A DNA stretch of 13,136 bases from Planctomycetaceae bacterium (GTDB taxonomy: Bacteria > Planctomycetota > Planctomycetia > Pirellulales > Pirellulaceae): positions 1 to 13,136 of the forward strand of contig NYXM01000026.1 of the NCBI GenBank assembly GCA_002685655.1. Reading direction: 5' to 3'. Numbering within the stretch: the stretch's first letter is position 1; each line of letters starts with the position of its first letter. Of the stretch, positions 3,177-13,136 are shown piece after piece. A program made the translations under genes and the position numbers. The notes below the pieces were generated by a model, which ran no database searches, was not told the DNA's origin, and saw only the letters and a list, made by a program, of their open reading frames with translations.

Positions 3177-3321
3177 AATCAGCAAGCAGGTGCACAGTTG
3201 CTTGTCAGGCCGAATCTCTGCCAACCCAACGGTCCTTATTGCCGTGCCGGTTGTACCGATCGCGCCGGACGGATGGGCTGCACGACCTACGATTCAGGTT
3301 CAGAGCTGGAAAAACCGAAGA

Positions 3322-4662
3322 ATGCCTCAGTACCGGCACACTACTGGCGACCAGTGGAGTCGTTTGCCGGCGAATCGCCTGGCCGCCTATCGCGTGGCGA
3401 AATGCCGATTGGATCCTCACCAAATATTCTGGTTACGTATGCAATTCCGACAGAATGGGCAGCGCGACGAGCGGCGTCGTCGCGTGTTGCGAGACGAAAT
3501 GTTGACCTCGCCTGGGGCCGAGGGCGATGAAGCACAAGTTACAGGCGGTCGAGAGACCGAGACTAAGGTCCCGCCCCGCGGCTACTCAGCGGCCGTTTCG
3601 ATAGAATCGCAGCCGCCCATTTCGTGCCTCATTGCCACACGACCTTGGACGCTCACCGTGGCGGTGCTAGCTGGGTTAACTGTCATTGCTGGATTGGAGG
3701 CCGCCTATTCGAACATCTTCCATGGTTCGCATCTTCGGCCCGAGGTTACCGCCGCGCTGGATGTCGTCGCGCCAGGCAGTCTCGCGGCCTGGTTTTCCTC
3801 TGTGTTGCTCTCCATGGCTGCCGTCAACGCCGTGTTGGTCTACTGGTTGCGCAGTCACAGGCTGGACGATTATCGAGCTCGCTATCGCGTCTGGCTATGG
3901 GCAGCGTTTGGGCTGACCATCGCTGCCATTGATGCCAGCACATCGCTTCACTCGGTTGTCGGCCAGTTGATTGCGGATCGATTTGAAATGCCTTGGCTGC
4001 AGAGCCCTATGGTCAACGGCGTCGTGGTTCTGTCGCTCGTATTCGGCAGTCTGGCAGCCCGGCTTGGATTCGAGATTTGGTCAAGCCGGCTGGCAAGGTC
4101 GTGGTCCCTGTTGGCCGCGATCAGTTACTTTACGGCGATCTTGATCCAATTGGATGTGCTGGTGGTTGACAGCGTCTTACTGACTGCCATGGCCGAATCG
4201 ACAGTGATCCTGGTTGCCAACCTGGCAGTTACGCTCGTCGTGGCCTCGTATTGCCGCTATGTGTATCTGGAGTCCCAGGGAGAACTCAAGCCTCGCCGGC
4301 AGCGCCGTCGAAAACTGGCAGTGGATGTGCAAGGTACGGATGACAAGGGCAGGCCGGACAAGAAACTGGCCACGAGGTCCGCGCGGGGATCGCTGGTCAA
4401 ACCGGCAGAAGACGATGCACCGAAAGGAACGCTCAGGACGAATACCATCAATTCGAAGTCCATTCGTTGCGATTCCGCTCATCAGTCGCTTGGCGATGCT
4501 CAGGCAGCCAAAAAGGCGTCCGGCAACTTGAATCCCGCTGAATCGGCGGGCCACGCGGATATGTTAGATTTCGATCCCGAGACTGGCGAAAGACTGTCCA
4601 AATCCGAGCGACGCCGACTTCGGAAGCAAATGCGACGTCAAAAGAAGACGGGGAGTGGTTAG
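3322..4662 (+). CDS. Six-helix membrane protein with a long basic C-terminal tail, function unknown
   Basis: I do not recognise this family. From the ATG at 3322 the product has 446 residues. A hydrophilic, Arg-rich N-terminal stretch (1-~105) comes first. Six hydrophobic segments follow at about 109-129, 152-176, 188-208, 231-251, 259-281 and 287-314, indicating an inner-membrane protein. The remaining ~130 residues are charged and low in hydrophobics, ending in a very basic segment that includes [16 protein letters not shown] just before the stop. That tail could bind nucleic acid or acidic lipid, but this is only inference. The frame is open back to a GTG at 3190. I prefer 3322 because 3190-3321 reads poorly as protein and is close to the divergent promoter. 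It is divergent from the c-di-GMP gene and 104 bp upstream of gltX, so co-transcription with gltX is possible. Confidence 0.72.
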
Positions 4663-4766
4663 GAAGTCTTCAATGCTGGATAGTAGGTAGTCGCTCTACG
4701 CCAGGACTGGCTGCTGGTCGCTTGCGATTCCAATTCCATCCCTCATCTCTGACGCATTGCAGACAC

Positions 4767-6323
4767 ATGGTTCGAACTCGCTTTGCCCCCAGCCCCACCG
4801 GCTATCTACACATTGGTGGGGTCCGCACCGCCTTATTTAACTGGCTTTATGCGCGGCATCACAATGGCCAGTTTATTCTGCGCATCGATGATACCGACCA
4901 ACAGCGCAATGTCGCCGAGGCGCTGCAGCCCATTCTGGACGGTTTTCGTTGGCTCGGCATCGATTGGGATGAAGGCCCCGAGGTCAATGGCCCGCACGCT
5001 CCGTACTATCAGTCGCAACGTGACCAGCGCTATGACGAAGCCGTGGCCAAATTGCTTGACGACGGATTGGCCTACCGTGATTTTGCCACCACGGACGAAC
5101 TGGCTGCCGAACGCGAGGGGGCGGCGGAGGAGAAACGCGACTTCGTCTACAGCCGGCGTTGGATGGCCGAATCTGCGGCAGATGTTGCCCGATTTGAGGG
5201 CGAAGGGCGATCCTCGGTTGTGCGATTGAAGATGCCGCGCGAGGGAAGTTGCAGTTTCCACGACCTCATTCGTGGCGACGTCCAGTTTGCTTGGAGTCGC
5301 GAACAGGATCATGTCATTCAACGGGCGGACGGCAGCTGCCTGTATCATCTGGCCAGTGTGATCGACGACGCAGACTTCCAGATTTCCCATGTGATTCGTG
5401 CTGAAGAGCATTTGCCAAATACGCCGCGACAACGTTTCATCGCCGAGTCGCTGGGGTTGGAGCCGCCGCAATTTGCTCATCTGCCGTACGTTGCCGAGAC
5501 AGGCGGAACTCAAAAGATCAGTAAACGAAAACTCTCCAAGTATCTCAAGAATCGGGATTTCAAAGAGCTATTCGAACACGGCTCGGCAATTGCCGCGACA
5601 CTCGGCCGTGAAGTCGCTGCGGACACCTTCAATCCGGTCATTGTCGACTTCTACCGAGAGGTCGGATATTTGCCGGAAGCAATCTTGAATTACTTGGTCT
5701 TGCTAGGCTGGTCGCTCGATGACAAGACGGAGACGTTTTCACGGGAAGAGATGGTCCAGCAATTCTCTTTGGAACGTGTCAACAAATCACCGGCGAGCTT
5801 CGATCCGCAGAAACTGCGTGCGACCCAGGTACGTTATATGCAAGCCCTGCCAAGCAAGAAGAAAGTTGCCATGGTCTTGCCATATATTCAGCGGGCCGGA
5901 TGGGTCAGTTCGCCGCCACCTTGCGAGACTGGTCCACACCTGGCCCAGATCCTGGCGGCCGCCGATGACCGGATTAAAGTGGCCGGCGACATCCTGGAAT
6001 TCAGGGAGTTCTTTGTTGCCGACGACGACATCGAGTTTAATGAGAAGGCGTTTGAGAAACGCATTCGCAAACCGAACGCGACACCGCTGTTGATTGCATT
6101 TCGCGAGGAACTCGCGGCGATCGACAACTTCAACGCTGCATCGACGGAAGCTGCCTTGCGCGCATTTATTGAAGCCAAGTTGATCAAGATGGGTAACATC
6201 ATTCACGCCCTCCGCGTAGCCGTGACCGGCAAAACGGTCGGTTTGGGCATGTTCGATACGCTCGAAATCTTGGGCCGCGAATCCTGCCTCGCGCGAATTG
6301 ACCGTGCCTGCCAGCGTGCCTGA
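4767..6323 (+). CDS. gltX: Glutamyl-tRNA synthetase
   Basis: Class I aminoacyl-tRNA synthetase that charges tRNA-Glu with glutamate in the cytoplasm. The N-terminus [14 protein letters not shown] (5-18) carries the HIGH-type ATP-binding motif, and KISKR (250-254) is the KMSKS-type motif. Between them lie conserved GltX stretches such as LRIDDTD (38-44) and the [12 protein letters not shown] region (~211-222). The 518-residue protein is longer than E. coli GltX (471). Much of the difference is a segment of about 45 residues (255-299) between KISKR and [11 protein letters not shown], where E. coli has about 12. The C-terminal anticodon-binding helical domain is complete. The start at 4767 puts the conserved motif at the usual distance from the N-terminus; an in-frame start at 4722 would add 15 unconvincing residues. 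No clear Shine-Dalgarno is visible. It converges with the redoxin gene, with only 20 bp between stops. Confidence 0.96.
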
Positions 6324-6343: not shown

Positions 6344-6895
6344 TCAATCCAGCGACTTCACCATGTCGATCAGCTGCTTTACCGAATGGCGGCGGCGTAC
6401 ATCACCAGGCAAGTGGCCTCGGACTCGTAGGTCGCTGTCCACGATGATCGTTATCGGTTTGGGAATTCCTGCCTGACGGCCCCGCGCCCGTTCGTTGCGA
6501 ACTCCGTAGGCGTCAATCACTTTGCTGTCCGGATCGGCCAGCAGTGGAAATGTGATTCTGTGCTTCTTGGTGAACTTGGCCAAAACATCAACTGAGTCAT
6601 AACTGATGCCAACGACTTGAACGTTGGCGGCTTCAAGATCCTTGATCTCCTTTTGCAGTTGATCCAACTGCGTCACACAGAATGGTCACCAATCCGCCGA
6701 ACGGTAAAAGATCAAGGCTACCGGCATATTCTTGACGAGATCAGCGAGCGAAGTCGCCTTTCCTGCTTGGTTGTTGAGTTCAAACTTGGGGGCAACTTCG
6801 CCCACTGGAATTGGCGATGCGCCGTAGGCGGTTGCCGATCCAAGGAGCAGTAGGCTCGCGGTGACGACCGAAATCAATGTCCCGTTGAAGATCAT
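6344..6895 (-). CDS. Secreted peroxiredoxin/redoxin-like protein, candidate selenoprotein (Sec at TGA 6686-6688)
   Basis: Read through one in-frame TGA, this is a 183-residue AhpC/TSA-type thioredoxin-fold protein. Residues 1-~26 form a signal peptide (MIFNGTLIS, a hydrophobic core, then a GSATAYGA-like cleavage region), so it should act outside the cytoplasm. The mature part begins PVGEVAPKFELNN, followed by the beta strand ALIFYRSADW. TGA then occupies codon 70, followed by P-F-C. Homologues have WCPxC here, so TGA replaces the first, nucleophilic cysteine and the second (C73) remains. The frame continues unchanged through typical fold elements: VQVVGISYDS, a TFPLLADPDSKVIDAYGV stretch and PITIIVDSD. 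The likely function is thiol/selenol peroxide reduction or disulfide exchange. The start at 6895 is supported by AGGAG six nt upstream. Split calling would give a 69-residue fragment plus a fragment starting at a GTG (6676). The alternative is a nonsense mutation or sequencing error. Confidence 0.85.
6655..6688 (-). promoter_or_regulatory. Candidate bacterial SECIS element next to the Sec UGA
   Basis: On the minus strand the UGA (6688-6686) is followed by 14 nt and then a perfect 7-bp stem: GCAGTTG (6671-6665), loop GAT (6664-6662), CAACTGC (6661-6655). The loop begins 21 nt after the UGA and its first base is G. The bacterial SECIS model as I recall it wants a hairpin just downstream of UGA, a loop roughly 16-37 nt away, and a G in the first two loop positions. 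Caveat: the stem coincides with codons for Q-L-D-Q-L, which are partly self-complementary and could pair by chance. Confidence 0.65.
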
Positions 6896-7011: not shown

Positions 7012-7174
7012 AACCCGGTCAGAAGTTAAGTGAGCAACGTCACAGTTTAGAATTTGCTTGGCGCGTCGCCGATCAGAAGATGGTGGCCGAGGTCGCTGTC
7101 AGGGCAGGGGGCGGTTGGGACGGATCTCTCATGTGAATCCCGGTGGGCACGGCCTTTTTGGGGCAGAATCGGCC

Positions 7175-7203
7175 TTGTTTGACAATTTTGGGGCTCGTAT
7201 ACT
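7175..7203 (+). promoter_or_regulatory. Candidate sigma-70 promoter for the secretin-like gene
   Basis: TATACT (7198-7203) matches the -10 consensus at 5 of 6 positions. At the correct 17-nt spacing lies a weak -35, TTGTTT (7175-7180). A perfect TTGACA overlaps it at 7179-7184 but is only 13 nt from the -10, too close for a normal promoter. The predicted leader to ATG 7332 is about 120 nt. Confidence 0.42.
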
Positions 7204-7331
7204 CCGCCACCATTTTCGGCCGCCGCTCGAGGCCACCAGACGGGAAAGTCTCAATCGCGATCCGTGTCGAAGCTGACGCAGAGAATGGTACCGCGTTCCT
7301 ATTTCGGCGGGCTCCACCACAAGGGAGAAGC

Positions 7332-8498
7332 ATGATGGCTCAGCATCCTCAATTGTCGCAACCAGTGGCCAGGGTTACCTGTTTTCTGCTGGTCAGTGGG
7401 TTCGGTTTGGTTCACGCTCAGGAGAACGTAGCGACAGAGAACGGTCCGATCAACTCGACCGAAGTCTCTTCGGCTGACGCAAATGGAACGCTGACCAAAG
7501 TCACCAAGGGTGACGGCGTGTTGCCGCACAGCCACGGGCAGATCTGGCGCGAGTACGACATTTCGCCTTATACCGACCGTGTTGCGACGACGGCGCGGCC
7601 CGAGCAAGCGATCGTCGATTGGATTTTGCGCGACACCGGAACAGAGATCTGGTTTTCTGAGCCCGTTGGGCTGCTGAGCGCCAATCGCGACAAGTTGGTC
7701 GTCTACAACACGCCGGAAATGCAGGAGCTTGTACGGGGCGTCGTGGATCGGTTCGTCAGCAGTCGAGCGGATTCTAATGCCTTCAGTTTACAGTTGGCCA
7801 CCGTTGGGAGTCCCAATTGGCGAAGCAAGGCGTTACCGTTGATGCGTGCGGTGACGGTTCAATCACCAGGGGTCGATGCCTGGCTGTTGTCCCCGGAAAA
7901 TGCGGCCGTGCTGATCAATCAGCTCCGCAAACGCATGGACTTTCGTGAACACAATTCACCCAATCTGGTGATCCACAATGGGCAGTCACAGGCAATTTCA
8001 CGGACGCGACCGCGCAACTACGTTCGGTCCGTTGGGATCCGGCCAAACGCTTCACCAGGGTATGAACTTGAACCTGGGCAGATCCAGGAGGGGTTCTCGC
8101 TGCAAATCAGCCCGCTGCTCTCGCTGGACAAGCGGGCCGTGGATGCGGTGATCAAGTGCCAGATTGACCAGGTCGAGAAATTCGTCCCCGTCGGAATTGA
8201 CATCCCGGGTGTGGCCGCCGGTCGCCAATCGGTTCAGATTCAGGTGCCCCAGTTGGTGAGTTGGCGATTGCACGAACGTTTTCGCTGGCCAGTAGACCAG
8301 GTTCTGTTGGTCAGTTGTGGCGTCGTGGCAACACCCACGGCCGACCGCCCCAGGTCGATCGGCCTTCCTTTGTTAGGCGGTTCGACGGGGAGAGCGGACG
8401 CGCTTCTGTTCATTCAAAACCAGGGCAAAGTGAGCCAGCCGGGTGGGATCGATCGGACCGCCAATGGCGCCACACCGAACAGCCGGGGACGGTATTGA
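7332..8498 (+). CDS. Secreted secretin-like protein of unknown function
   Basis: The 388-residue product starts with a signal peptide of about 30 residues (hydrophobic core TCFLLVSGFGLVHAQ). The section from about residue 80 to 140 (DWILRDTGTEIWF... DKLVVYNTPEMQELVRGVVDRFV) resembles the small N-domains of secretins and related outer-membrane proteins, where a short strand-helix unit ends in xLVVxNTPExxxxV. The later part contains NGQSQAIS (about 215-222), then FSLQISPLLSLDKRAVDAVIK and VLLVSCGVVATP, a pattern reminiscent of the secretin beta domain. It is far shorter than a complete type II secretin and has no clear channel-forming remainder, so a periplasmic or outer-membrane-associated accessory role is more likely. 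AGGGAG just upstream supports the start at 7332 (the next ATG, 7335, is equally possible). The frame is open back to 7143 but runs across the predicted promoter. It is followed by a 154-bp gap. Confidence 0.75.
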   Translation: MMAQHPQLSQPVARVTCFLLVSGFGLVHAQENVATENGPINSTEVSSADANGTLTKVTKGDGVLPHSHGQIWREYDISPYTDRVATTARPEQAIVDWILRDTGTEIWFSEPVGLLSANRDKLVVYNTPEMQELVRGVVDRFVSSRADSNAFSLQLATVGSPNWRSKALPLMRAVTVQSPGVDAWLLSPENAAVLINQLRKRMDFREHNSPNLVIHNGQSQAISRTRPRNYVRSVGIRPNASPGYELEPGQIQEGFSLQISPLLSLDKRAVDAVIKCQIDQVEKFVPVGIDIPGVAAGRQSVQIQVPQLVSWRLHERFRWPVDQVLLVSCGVVATPTADRPRSIGLPLLGGSTGRADALLFIQNQGKVSQPGGIDRTANGATPNSRGRY

Positions 8499-11603: not shown

Positions 11604-13136
11604 ATGAATCCGAATGAAGTGCTACGAATCGTCGATTCGTTGCATCGTGATAAGAACATTGACCCGGAAATCGTCTTCCAGGCGATCGAAGCGGCGTTGA
11701 CTTCGGCAGCTCGTAAGCAGTACGGCGAAGAGTCTGATATCGCGATCACGATCGACCGCGAGACGTGCGGATTCACTGGCGTCTGCGATGGCGTGGAACT
11801 CGACACCGAGGTGATCGGGCGGATCGGCGCACAGACAGCCAAGCAGGTGATCATTCAGAAGATTCGTGAGGCGGAACGCGACGCGCTGATCGAAGAGTAC
11901 AAAGAGCAAATCAGCTCGATGGTTTCCGGAATTGTGCAACGAAGTGATGGCGGAGCCACGACCGTGGCGCTGTCGGGCGTCGAGGCGATACTGCCCCGCA
12001 GCGAACAGATTCAAGGCGAATCGCATCATCCCAACGAACGCGTGCGGGCGATCGTTTACGAGGTCAAACCGCAAGGCAATCGCGTCAAGGTCGTGCTCAG
12101 TCGGAAACACCCCAATTTGGTTAGACGGTTGTTCGAGCAGGAGATTCCTGAAGTCTCCGATGGCGTGATTACCATCAACGAGTTGGCACGTGAACCAGGC
12201 TATCGCAGCAAGGTTGCTGTGAGCAGTTCTGATCAACGAATTGATTGCGTCGGTGCGTGTGTTGGCGTGCGTGGCAATCGGATCAAGAACATCGTGGATG
12301 AATTGTCCGGCGAGCGGATCGACATCGTCCGTTGGAGTGACGATCCCGAAGTCTTGATTCCAAACGCCCTCCAACCCGCCGAAGTCGAACAGGTACTGTT
12401 GTGCGACATGATTGGTCGCGCCATCGTGTTGGTGCGAGAAGATCAGCTTTCGCTGGCAATCGGTCGGCGAGGTCAAAATGTGCGACTCGCGAGCAAACTC
12501 AGCGGGTGGGACATCGAAATCATGACAGCAAACGAACTCGAAGACCAGATCGAACGAGCTGTCGCCGGCTTCGCAGAATTGGATGGCATGACCGAAGATC
12601 TGGCGCAGCAGCTTGTCGAGCAAGGCTATTTGTCGTACGACGACCTGTCTGTCATTGAGCCCGACGCCATGATGGAAATGGGAGGTATGACGGAAGAGCA
12701 AGTGGACGCGATCGTCACCGAGGCAGAGAATAAGGCAGAAGCGGCTGAACGTGCCGCAGCCGAAGAAAGGCGTCAACAAAAGGCCGCCGAAAGAGCTGCC
12801 GAGCAAGCGGCTCGCGAGGCAGCTCGGGAGGCGGCTGCGCGTGGCGAGACCCCGGCTGGCGAAGAAGCGACCACGGAAGAAGCAGCCACGGAAGAAGCAG
12901 CCACAGAAGAAGCAGCCACAGAGGAAGCAGCCACAGAAGAAGCAGCCACGGAAGAAGCAGCCACGGAAGAAGCGGCCCCAGAGGAAGCGGCCACAGAGGA
13001 GGCAGCCACAGAGGAAGCGGCCACGGAAGAAGCAGCCACGGAAGAAGCAGCCACAGAGGAAGCGGCCGTTGGCGACATGGCAGATGACGCGGTCGTCGCA
13101 GAAACACCTGTAGCCGTGAAGGGTGAAGAAGTAGCC
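11604..13136 (+). CDS. nusA: Transcription termination/antitermination factor NusA (3' end beyond window)
   Basis: RNA-polymerase-associated factor for pausing, termination and antitermination. The frame is open for all 511 codons up to the window end and runs off it; a TAG two codons upstream fixes the ATG at 11604. Residues 1-~100 are the NusA N-terminal domain, but about 33 residues shorter than in E. coli between IDRETCGF (49-56) and AQTAKQV (76-82). An S1 domain follows (~105-168), then KH1 with GVRG (221-224) and KH2 with GRRG (287-290), including the hallmark [12 protein letters not shown]. An acidic-repeat-like helical unit (~323-380) aligns with E. coli AR1. After it come an Ala/Glu/Arg-rich helix and an EEAAT tandem array. 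The usual neighbour rimP is not directly upstream; infB commonly follows in bacteria but is outside the view. Confidence 0.96.
12861..13070 (+). repeat. Tandem 15-bp repeats encoding EEAAT pentapeptides in nusA
   Basis: Fourteen consecutive 15-bp units encode EEATT once, then EEAAT mostly, with one EEAAP (unit 8) and a final EEAAV. The units differ only at synonymous third positions (GAA/GAG, GCA/GCG, ACA/ACG), which suggests expansion followed by drift and selection for the peptide. The product is a very acidic, helix-prone tail. Because the array is almost perfect, copy number may vary between strains. Confidence 0.93.

Follow-up and report, generated by a model that had tools for sequence, protein, structure and literature searches.

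Peroxiredoxin-like (Prx-like) selenoproteins with selenocysteine (Sec, U) at the first position of a UxxC motif have been in print since 2005. The Sargasso Sea study describes a Prx-like family of 22 sequences in which UXXC replaces TXXU, the motif of classical Sec-peroxiredoxin (PMC1088965), and the GOS study lists Prx-like 1, a pfam00578 family with UxxC and 225 genes (PMC2398784). The Sargasso Sea "Prx-like protein" and the GOS "Prx-like 1" are likely equivalent. Further, a third report describes selenoproteins and full sets of Sec-insertion genes in Planctomycetes (PMC4807772).

The window analyzed here, the whole 13,136-nucleotide stretch of contig NYXM01000026.1 from a Planctomycetaceae bacterium, contains a redoxin gene that very probably encodes a putatively exported peroxiredoxin-fold thiol:disulfide oxidoreductase or peroxidase, with the TGA at codon 70 decoded as Sec via tRNA-Sec, SelB, and a downstream hairpin. 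Since UxxC Prx-like selenoproteins were published as early as stated above, the gene is a further member of an already known family; the preliminary description of this DNA had likewise referred to such proteins as known. Judged by the family's published descriptions (PMC1088965, PMC2398784, PMC9312934, PMC13188914), the window shares with it the pfam00578 domain and the first-position Sec of a thioredoxin-like UxxC, and Cys homologues and a downstream bSECIS stem-loop are common to both; the reviews' reference sequence for the family is WP_010940744.1. In contrast, the SECIS loop of the window differs (GGAUC). The understanding of selenium use is unchanged by this selenoprotein. Support for the locus as a selenoprotein is good, and routine annotation breaks it into two pieces; its family forms a clean natural series for the study of Sec/Cys exchange. 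The features discussed below are the following.

6344..6895, minus strand: Prx-like (AhpC/TSA, redoxin) selenoprotein gene of 183 residues with TGA read as Sec, based on frame, PF00578, and predicted fold.
6686..6688, minus strand: proposed Sec codon TGA, residue 70, first position of UxxC; among 61 related loci, 34 likewise have TGA here.
6677..6679, minus strand: Cys73 (TGT), second (resolving) position of UxxC, aligned to the Cys of the Bcp/PrxQ SxxC (2cx3).
6818..6895, minus strand: hydrophobic N-terminus, likely a signal peptide of about residues 1-26 with an inferred end point, based on sequence and the low-confidence N-terminus of the model.
6655..6671, minus strand: putative bacterial SECIS hairpin, 7-bp stem GCAGUUG/CAACUGC with loop GAU, based on fold energy, synonymous shuffles, and covariation.
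4722..6323, plus strand: glutamyl-tRNA synthetase (GluRS) gene, convergent neighbor outside the selenoprotein gene, in the same arrangement in the nearest relative.

On the minus strand, positions 6895-6344 form a single frame of 183 codons plus stop, in which the TGA at 6688-6686 is the sole internal stop. The gene starts with an ATG at 6895-6893 (minus strand), preceded by an AGGAG 6 bases upstream, and ends normally with a TGA at 6346-6344 (minus strand). As originally noted, two open pieces share this frame and are joined only by a TGA at the first Cys position of a WCxxC motif (residue 70; YRSADW-U-PFC, motif W-U-P-F-C). The second Cys is intact, and the gene contains no Cys codon besides its TGT at residue 73.

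Of eight complete window genes that were inspected, the redoxin gene among them, five terminate with TGA, and the seven genes other than the redoxin gene have no TGA in-frame; a genome-wide reassignment of TGA is therefore not indicated. A reading in which TGA encodes an ordinary amino acid in the organism (Trp or Gly code) could draw on the database protein P0038, stored with Trp at the site. Given the terminator usage in the window and the Cys aligned at this position in 76 of the 120 best-listed relatives, its probability is practically negligible. P0038 itself reads RSASWWPYC at this motif, where its source probably rendered a TGA as Trp.

Conservation of the TGA was assessed by scanning an alignment of relatives against genome contigs from 84,980 species, each represented by a single genome, which yielded 61 loci. 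The codon at the site is TGA in 34 and TGC or TGT in 13; the site is absent from the remaining 14, mostly Bcp-like loci without W-x-x-x-C, which are counted neither as U nor as C. Neither TAA nor TAG occurs at this codon in any of the 47 loci with a W-x-x-x-C site. The TGA loci, some of which are close kin (L029 and L030 are nearly identical), come from records named Planctomycetota, Verrucomicrobiota, and Acidobacteriota, with one record each titled Proteobacteria and Deltaproteobacteria. The recurrence of TGA at this one codon across the genomes of different species, in 34 loci altogether, upholds the initial argument that nonsense at the catalytic codon is not a matter of chance.

The recurrence of TGA at the same codon in other assemblies likewise bears on a sequencing or assembly error, with TGC or TGT as the true codon. 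Such an error could be suspected because the window may be a single metagenome contig, yet a database protein from a 10,696-base contig (P0049) is identical to the first 69 residues and ends at the same point, although it may derive from the same sample. We consider an error of this kind extremely improbable.

The protein database gives a matching picture. It contains 163 matches, of which the best 120 were examined at the Sec column: Cys stands there in 76 and Trp in one, while 40 entries are C-terminal fragments and the last three are pieces of another kind. The Cys homologues sought at this column are thus present. The 40 fragments begin at residues 74-80, just past the Sec column, and hence are what gene callers are expected to produce from the same TGA; with 40 of the 120 best-listed relatives truncated in this way, the prediction that annotation pipelines split such genes is borne out.

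Among 294 genomes from the phylum of G001, the genome of the nearest relative, three match at an E value of 1e-20 or better (G001 included), each with exactly one internal TGA. Two loci of this phylum, L063 and L064 (genomes G053 and G182), have longer frames of 445 and 428 aa that comprise the redoxin region and one internal TGA; they are possibly fused selenoproteins. A scan of viral contigs found no relative. Matches occur in 244 plasmid records, all below 60% identity, and the eight matches listed are ordinary or unannotated redoxin-like proteins.

In a tree of 46 rows, which leaves out L018 (a further in-frame stop downstream) and L056, the sister of the window is locus L001 (contig JAUIHJ010000754.1, genome G001), with an SH-aLRT support of 98 and 70% identity. 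The tree requires four U/C changes and does not distinguish gain from loss. L001 carries the same TGA, and its GluRS gene stands tail to tail with the redoxin gene, with orf3190 beyond, as arranged in the window. Its GluRS is 85% identical to that of the window, the best value among 12 genomes compared, and its orf3190 is 61% identical. The preliminary description had set the selenoprotein against unrelated disruptions in close relatives; the nearest relative has the identical TGA instead. Between the window and L001, dN is 0.19 and dS 1.24 in the part after the TGA, and pN is 0.22 and pS 0.80 (saturated) in the mature part before it. The gene parts on both sides of the TGA evolve as coding sequence.

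These data weigh against a pseudogene, in which a nonsense mutation would have truncated a Cys redoxin in the source lineage and struck the catalytic codon by chance. A single base change from TGC or TGT to TGA would suffice for this, and the off-consensus SECIS loop of the window would fit it. Opposed to it are the same TGA in 34 genomes, the nearest relative included, the frame that is intact on both sides with purifying selection downstream, and the covarying hairpin and the coupling to sel genes described below, which render a pseudogene very improbable.

The published bacterial SECIS (bSECIS) model comprises a stem of 4-16 bp, a loop of 3-9 nt with a G within the first two loop positions, a distance of 16-37 nt from the UGA, and an energy of at most -7.5 kcal/mol, and prefers a loop G followed by G or U (PMC13188914). 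The hairpin of the window begins 14 nt after the TGA and its 3-nt loop 21 nt after it. With 7 bp, a 3-nt loop starting with G, 21 nt distance, and -8.9 kcal/mol, it agrees with the model; to obtain the preferred G or U at the second loop position, the closing G-C pair has to open, giving the 5-nt loop GGAUC. The energy refers to the 21-nt piece with the hairpin (z -4.1); in a wider context the hairpin is weaker, with z -1.3 for 44 nt and -1.65 for 67 nt.

Selection on the stem was evaluated with 2000 synonymous-codon shuffles for the window plus 34 TGA loci and for 12 Cys loci (L056 left out), whereby related sequences are treated as independent. In fixed register, the window and its 34 relatives form 229 of 245 pairs, compared to a mean of 168.5 in the shuffles (sd 6.3, maximum 189). 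In the 12 Cys loci, 55 of 84 pairs form versus 48.3 (sd 3.3, maximum 58), so that the stem is not clearly kept. The window alone forms all seven of seven pairs, which 6.6% of its synonymous shuffles equal, a weak result by itself. A less strict scan, which accepts every SECIS-like hairpin of -4 kcal/mol or below, detects one in 34 of 35 TGA sequences and also in seven of 12 Cys sequences; thus, the fixed register, rather than the mere presence of a hairpin, separates the two forms.

In the alignment of 34 distinct rows, 93.7% of the cells pair, and at most 41% do so when the partner strand is slid by 1-3 columns. Changes on both sides occur in four of the seven pairs, amounting to 40 such cells versus 15.2 in the shuffles, and one-sided changes are absent. 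Two of the five covariation measures, the number of pairs with a both-sided change and further pair types, are no higher than in the shuffles. RNAalifold, unprompted, predicts the same helix with six of the seven pairs. The SECIS stem is kept beyond codon choice, with compensatory changes.

The loop is where the window departs from its relatives. Its GAU is unique among the 35 sequences, all 34 relatives having GU in the loop, and therefore residue 77 is Asp (D77) instead of the usual Val. The change of the loop U to A raises the question of whether Sec insertion is weakened or being lost in the source lineage, in which case mostly a 69-residue stump or a restart at a GTG (V74) would be made. 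The uniqueness of the loop speaks for such a loss; the stem with its seven of seven pairs is fully kept, the coding sequence is intact, and GGAUC still fits the general bSECIS model, which together make a loss unlikely. A wider proposal, that Sec is inserted here via a SECIS loop lacking the otherwise invariant U (GGAUC versus GGUC), reflecting either SelB recognition that has diverged or a selenoprotein in the course of losing Sec, is speculative and somewhat less doubtful. Sec insertion at codon 70 directed by the hairpin remains our preferred reading of the window.

For the Sec machinery, we searched 50 genomes, comprising those of all 34 TGA loci, all 13 Cys loci, and three of the 14 loci without the site, for SelB (TIGR00475), tRNA-Sec (RF01852), and SelA (TIGR00474). 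Among the 34 TGA genomes, SelB exceeds its cut-off in 30, tRNA-Sec reaches at least 54 bits in 30, and SelA is found in 32; at least one of the three elements is present in all 34 and the complete set in 26. As most genomes are MAGs, gaps in these sets are expected, and G030, for example, has two SelB pieces on different contigs, both below the cut-off. In G001, SelA and SelB adjoin on contig C646 and tRNA-Sec lies on contig C631.

Of the Cys-form genomes (n=12, the distant L056, a Cys form with all three sel genes, being left out), two have selA, selB, and tRNA-Sec and ten have none, counting strong tRNA-Sec matches. The difference in having at least one sel element, 34 of 34 TGA versus two of 12 Cys genomes, gives a Fisher P of 1.6e-8, and with L056 put back (three of 13) 5.5e-8; all P values given here overstate independence because the genomes are related. 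SelB alone separates the groups with P 1.3e-5 (30 of 34 versus two of 12) and SelA alone with P 9.6e-7 (32 of 34 versus two of 12).

The tRNA-Sec line of 54 bits was set in a score gap after the scores were seen, because in our judgement hits of around 50 bits resemble long tRNAs of other kinds; the Rfam gathering score of 47 bits is passed by 41 of the 50 genomes and by five of 14 control genomes. At 47 bits, the TGA genomes G021 and G034 and the Cys genomes G008, G024, and G035 are added, resulting in 34 of 34 versus five of 12 genomes with at least one sel element (P 1.5e-5). The candidate selenoprotein proposed in the preliminary description is thus supported by the conserved TGA, the co-occurrence with sel genes in relatives, and the covarying SECIS-like hairpin. 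By kinship, we infer that the window's own genome carries sel genes as well.

Sec forms with the covarying SECIS hairpin occur in Planctomycetota, Acidobacteriota, and part of the Verrucomicrobiota; most Cys forms belong to Opitutae-type genomes that lack sel genes. The genomes of L027, L040, and L056 combine the Cys form with selA, selB, and a strong tRNA-Sec; hence, Cys forms are not confined to Sec-free genomes. Cys-form proteins of the peroxiredoxin family with WCPFC or WCPYC come from Opitutaceae and others; three of them, P0024, P0031, and P0035, named "peroxiredoxin family protein", are 47-49% identical over 84-86% of the query and share the motif region RSADW-C-P-[FY]-C with the window, Cys replacing Sec.

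The translated frame matches PF00578 (AhpC/TSA) with an E value of 1.5e-34 and a score of 119 bits (cut-off 26). The AlphaFold model has a mean pLDDT of 91.9 and a low-confidence N-terminus, which is hydrophobic and, from its sequence, likely resembles a signal peptide. The top PDB folds for the model are the Bcp/AhpE peroxiredoxins 5epf, 3hjp, and 1xvw (TM 0.87-0.88 by target length). We predict the protein to be an oxidoreductase that is exported and alike in modeled fold to Bcp/PrxQ and AhpE peroxiredoxins. Aligned by sequence to the Bcp 2cx3, the U-x-x-C of the window matches S-x-x-C, with residue 70 opposite Ser and Cys73 opposite the Cys, so Sec is at the thioredoxin-type attacking position. 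The Cys73 column we take to be the peroxidatic one in peroxiredoxins. By the same alignment, a classical Sec-peroxiredoxin (TxxU), which has Sec at the peroxidatic position and Thr three residues ahead of it, was rejected, Sec not being at the peroxidatic position. The SelL-related redox protein family NF040769 is related (E 2e-13), but a score of 50.4 bits versus a cut-off of 120 does not make the protein a member.

In the mechanism we propose, tRNA-Sec and SelB would decode the TGA of codon 70 as Sec, the hairpin starting 14 nt downstream recruiting SelB. The product would be exported and act as a thiol:disulfide oxidoreductase or peroxidase with the active site U70-P-F-C73. The Sec selenol would attack a disulfide or peroxide substrate, a U70-C73 selenenyl-sulfide would then form, and a partner would reduce it.

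Beyond the redoxin gene, an Rfam scan of the window gave three snoRNA matches below the gathering score, which were taken as chance. Two long open frames, 3190-4662 and 7143-8498, are without any Pfam match; beyond GluRS, the former is conserved in both L001 (61%) and L066 of G002 (35%). Positions 12861-13067 hold a 15-base tandem repeat in 13.8 copies (GAAGAAGCAGCCACA), which encodes a low-complexity TEEAA-repeat tail at the C-terminus of the NusA homologue at the end of the window.
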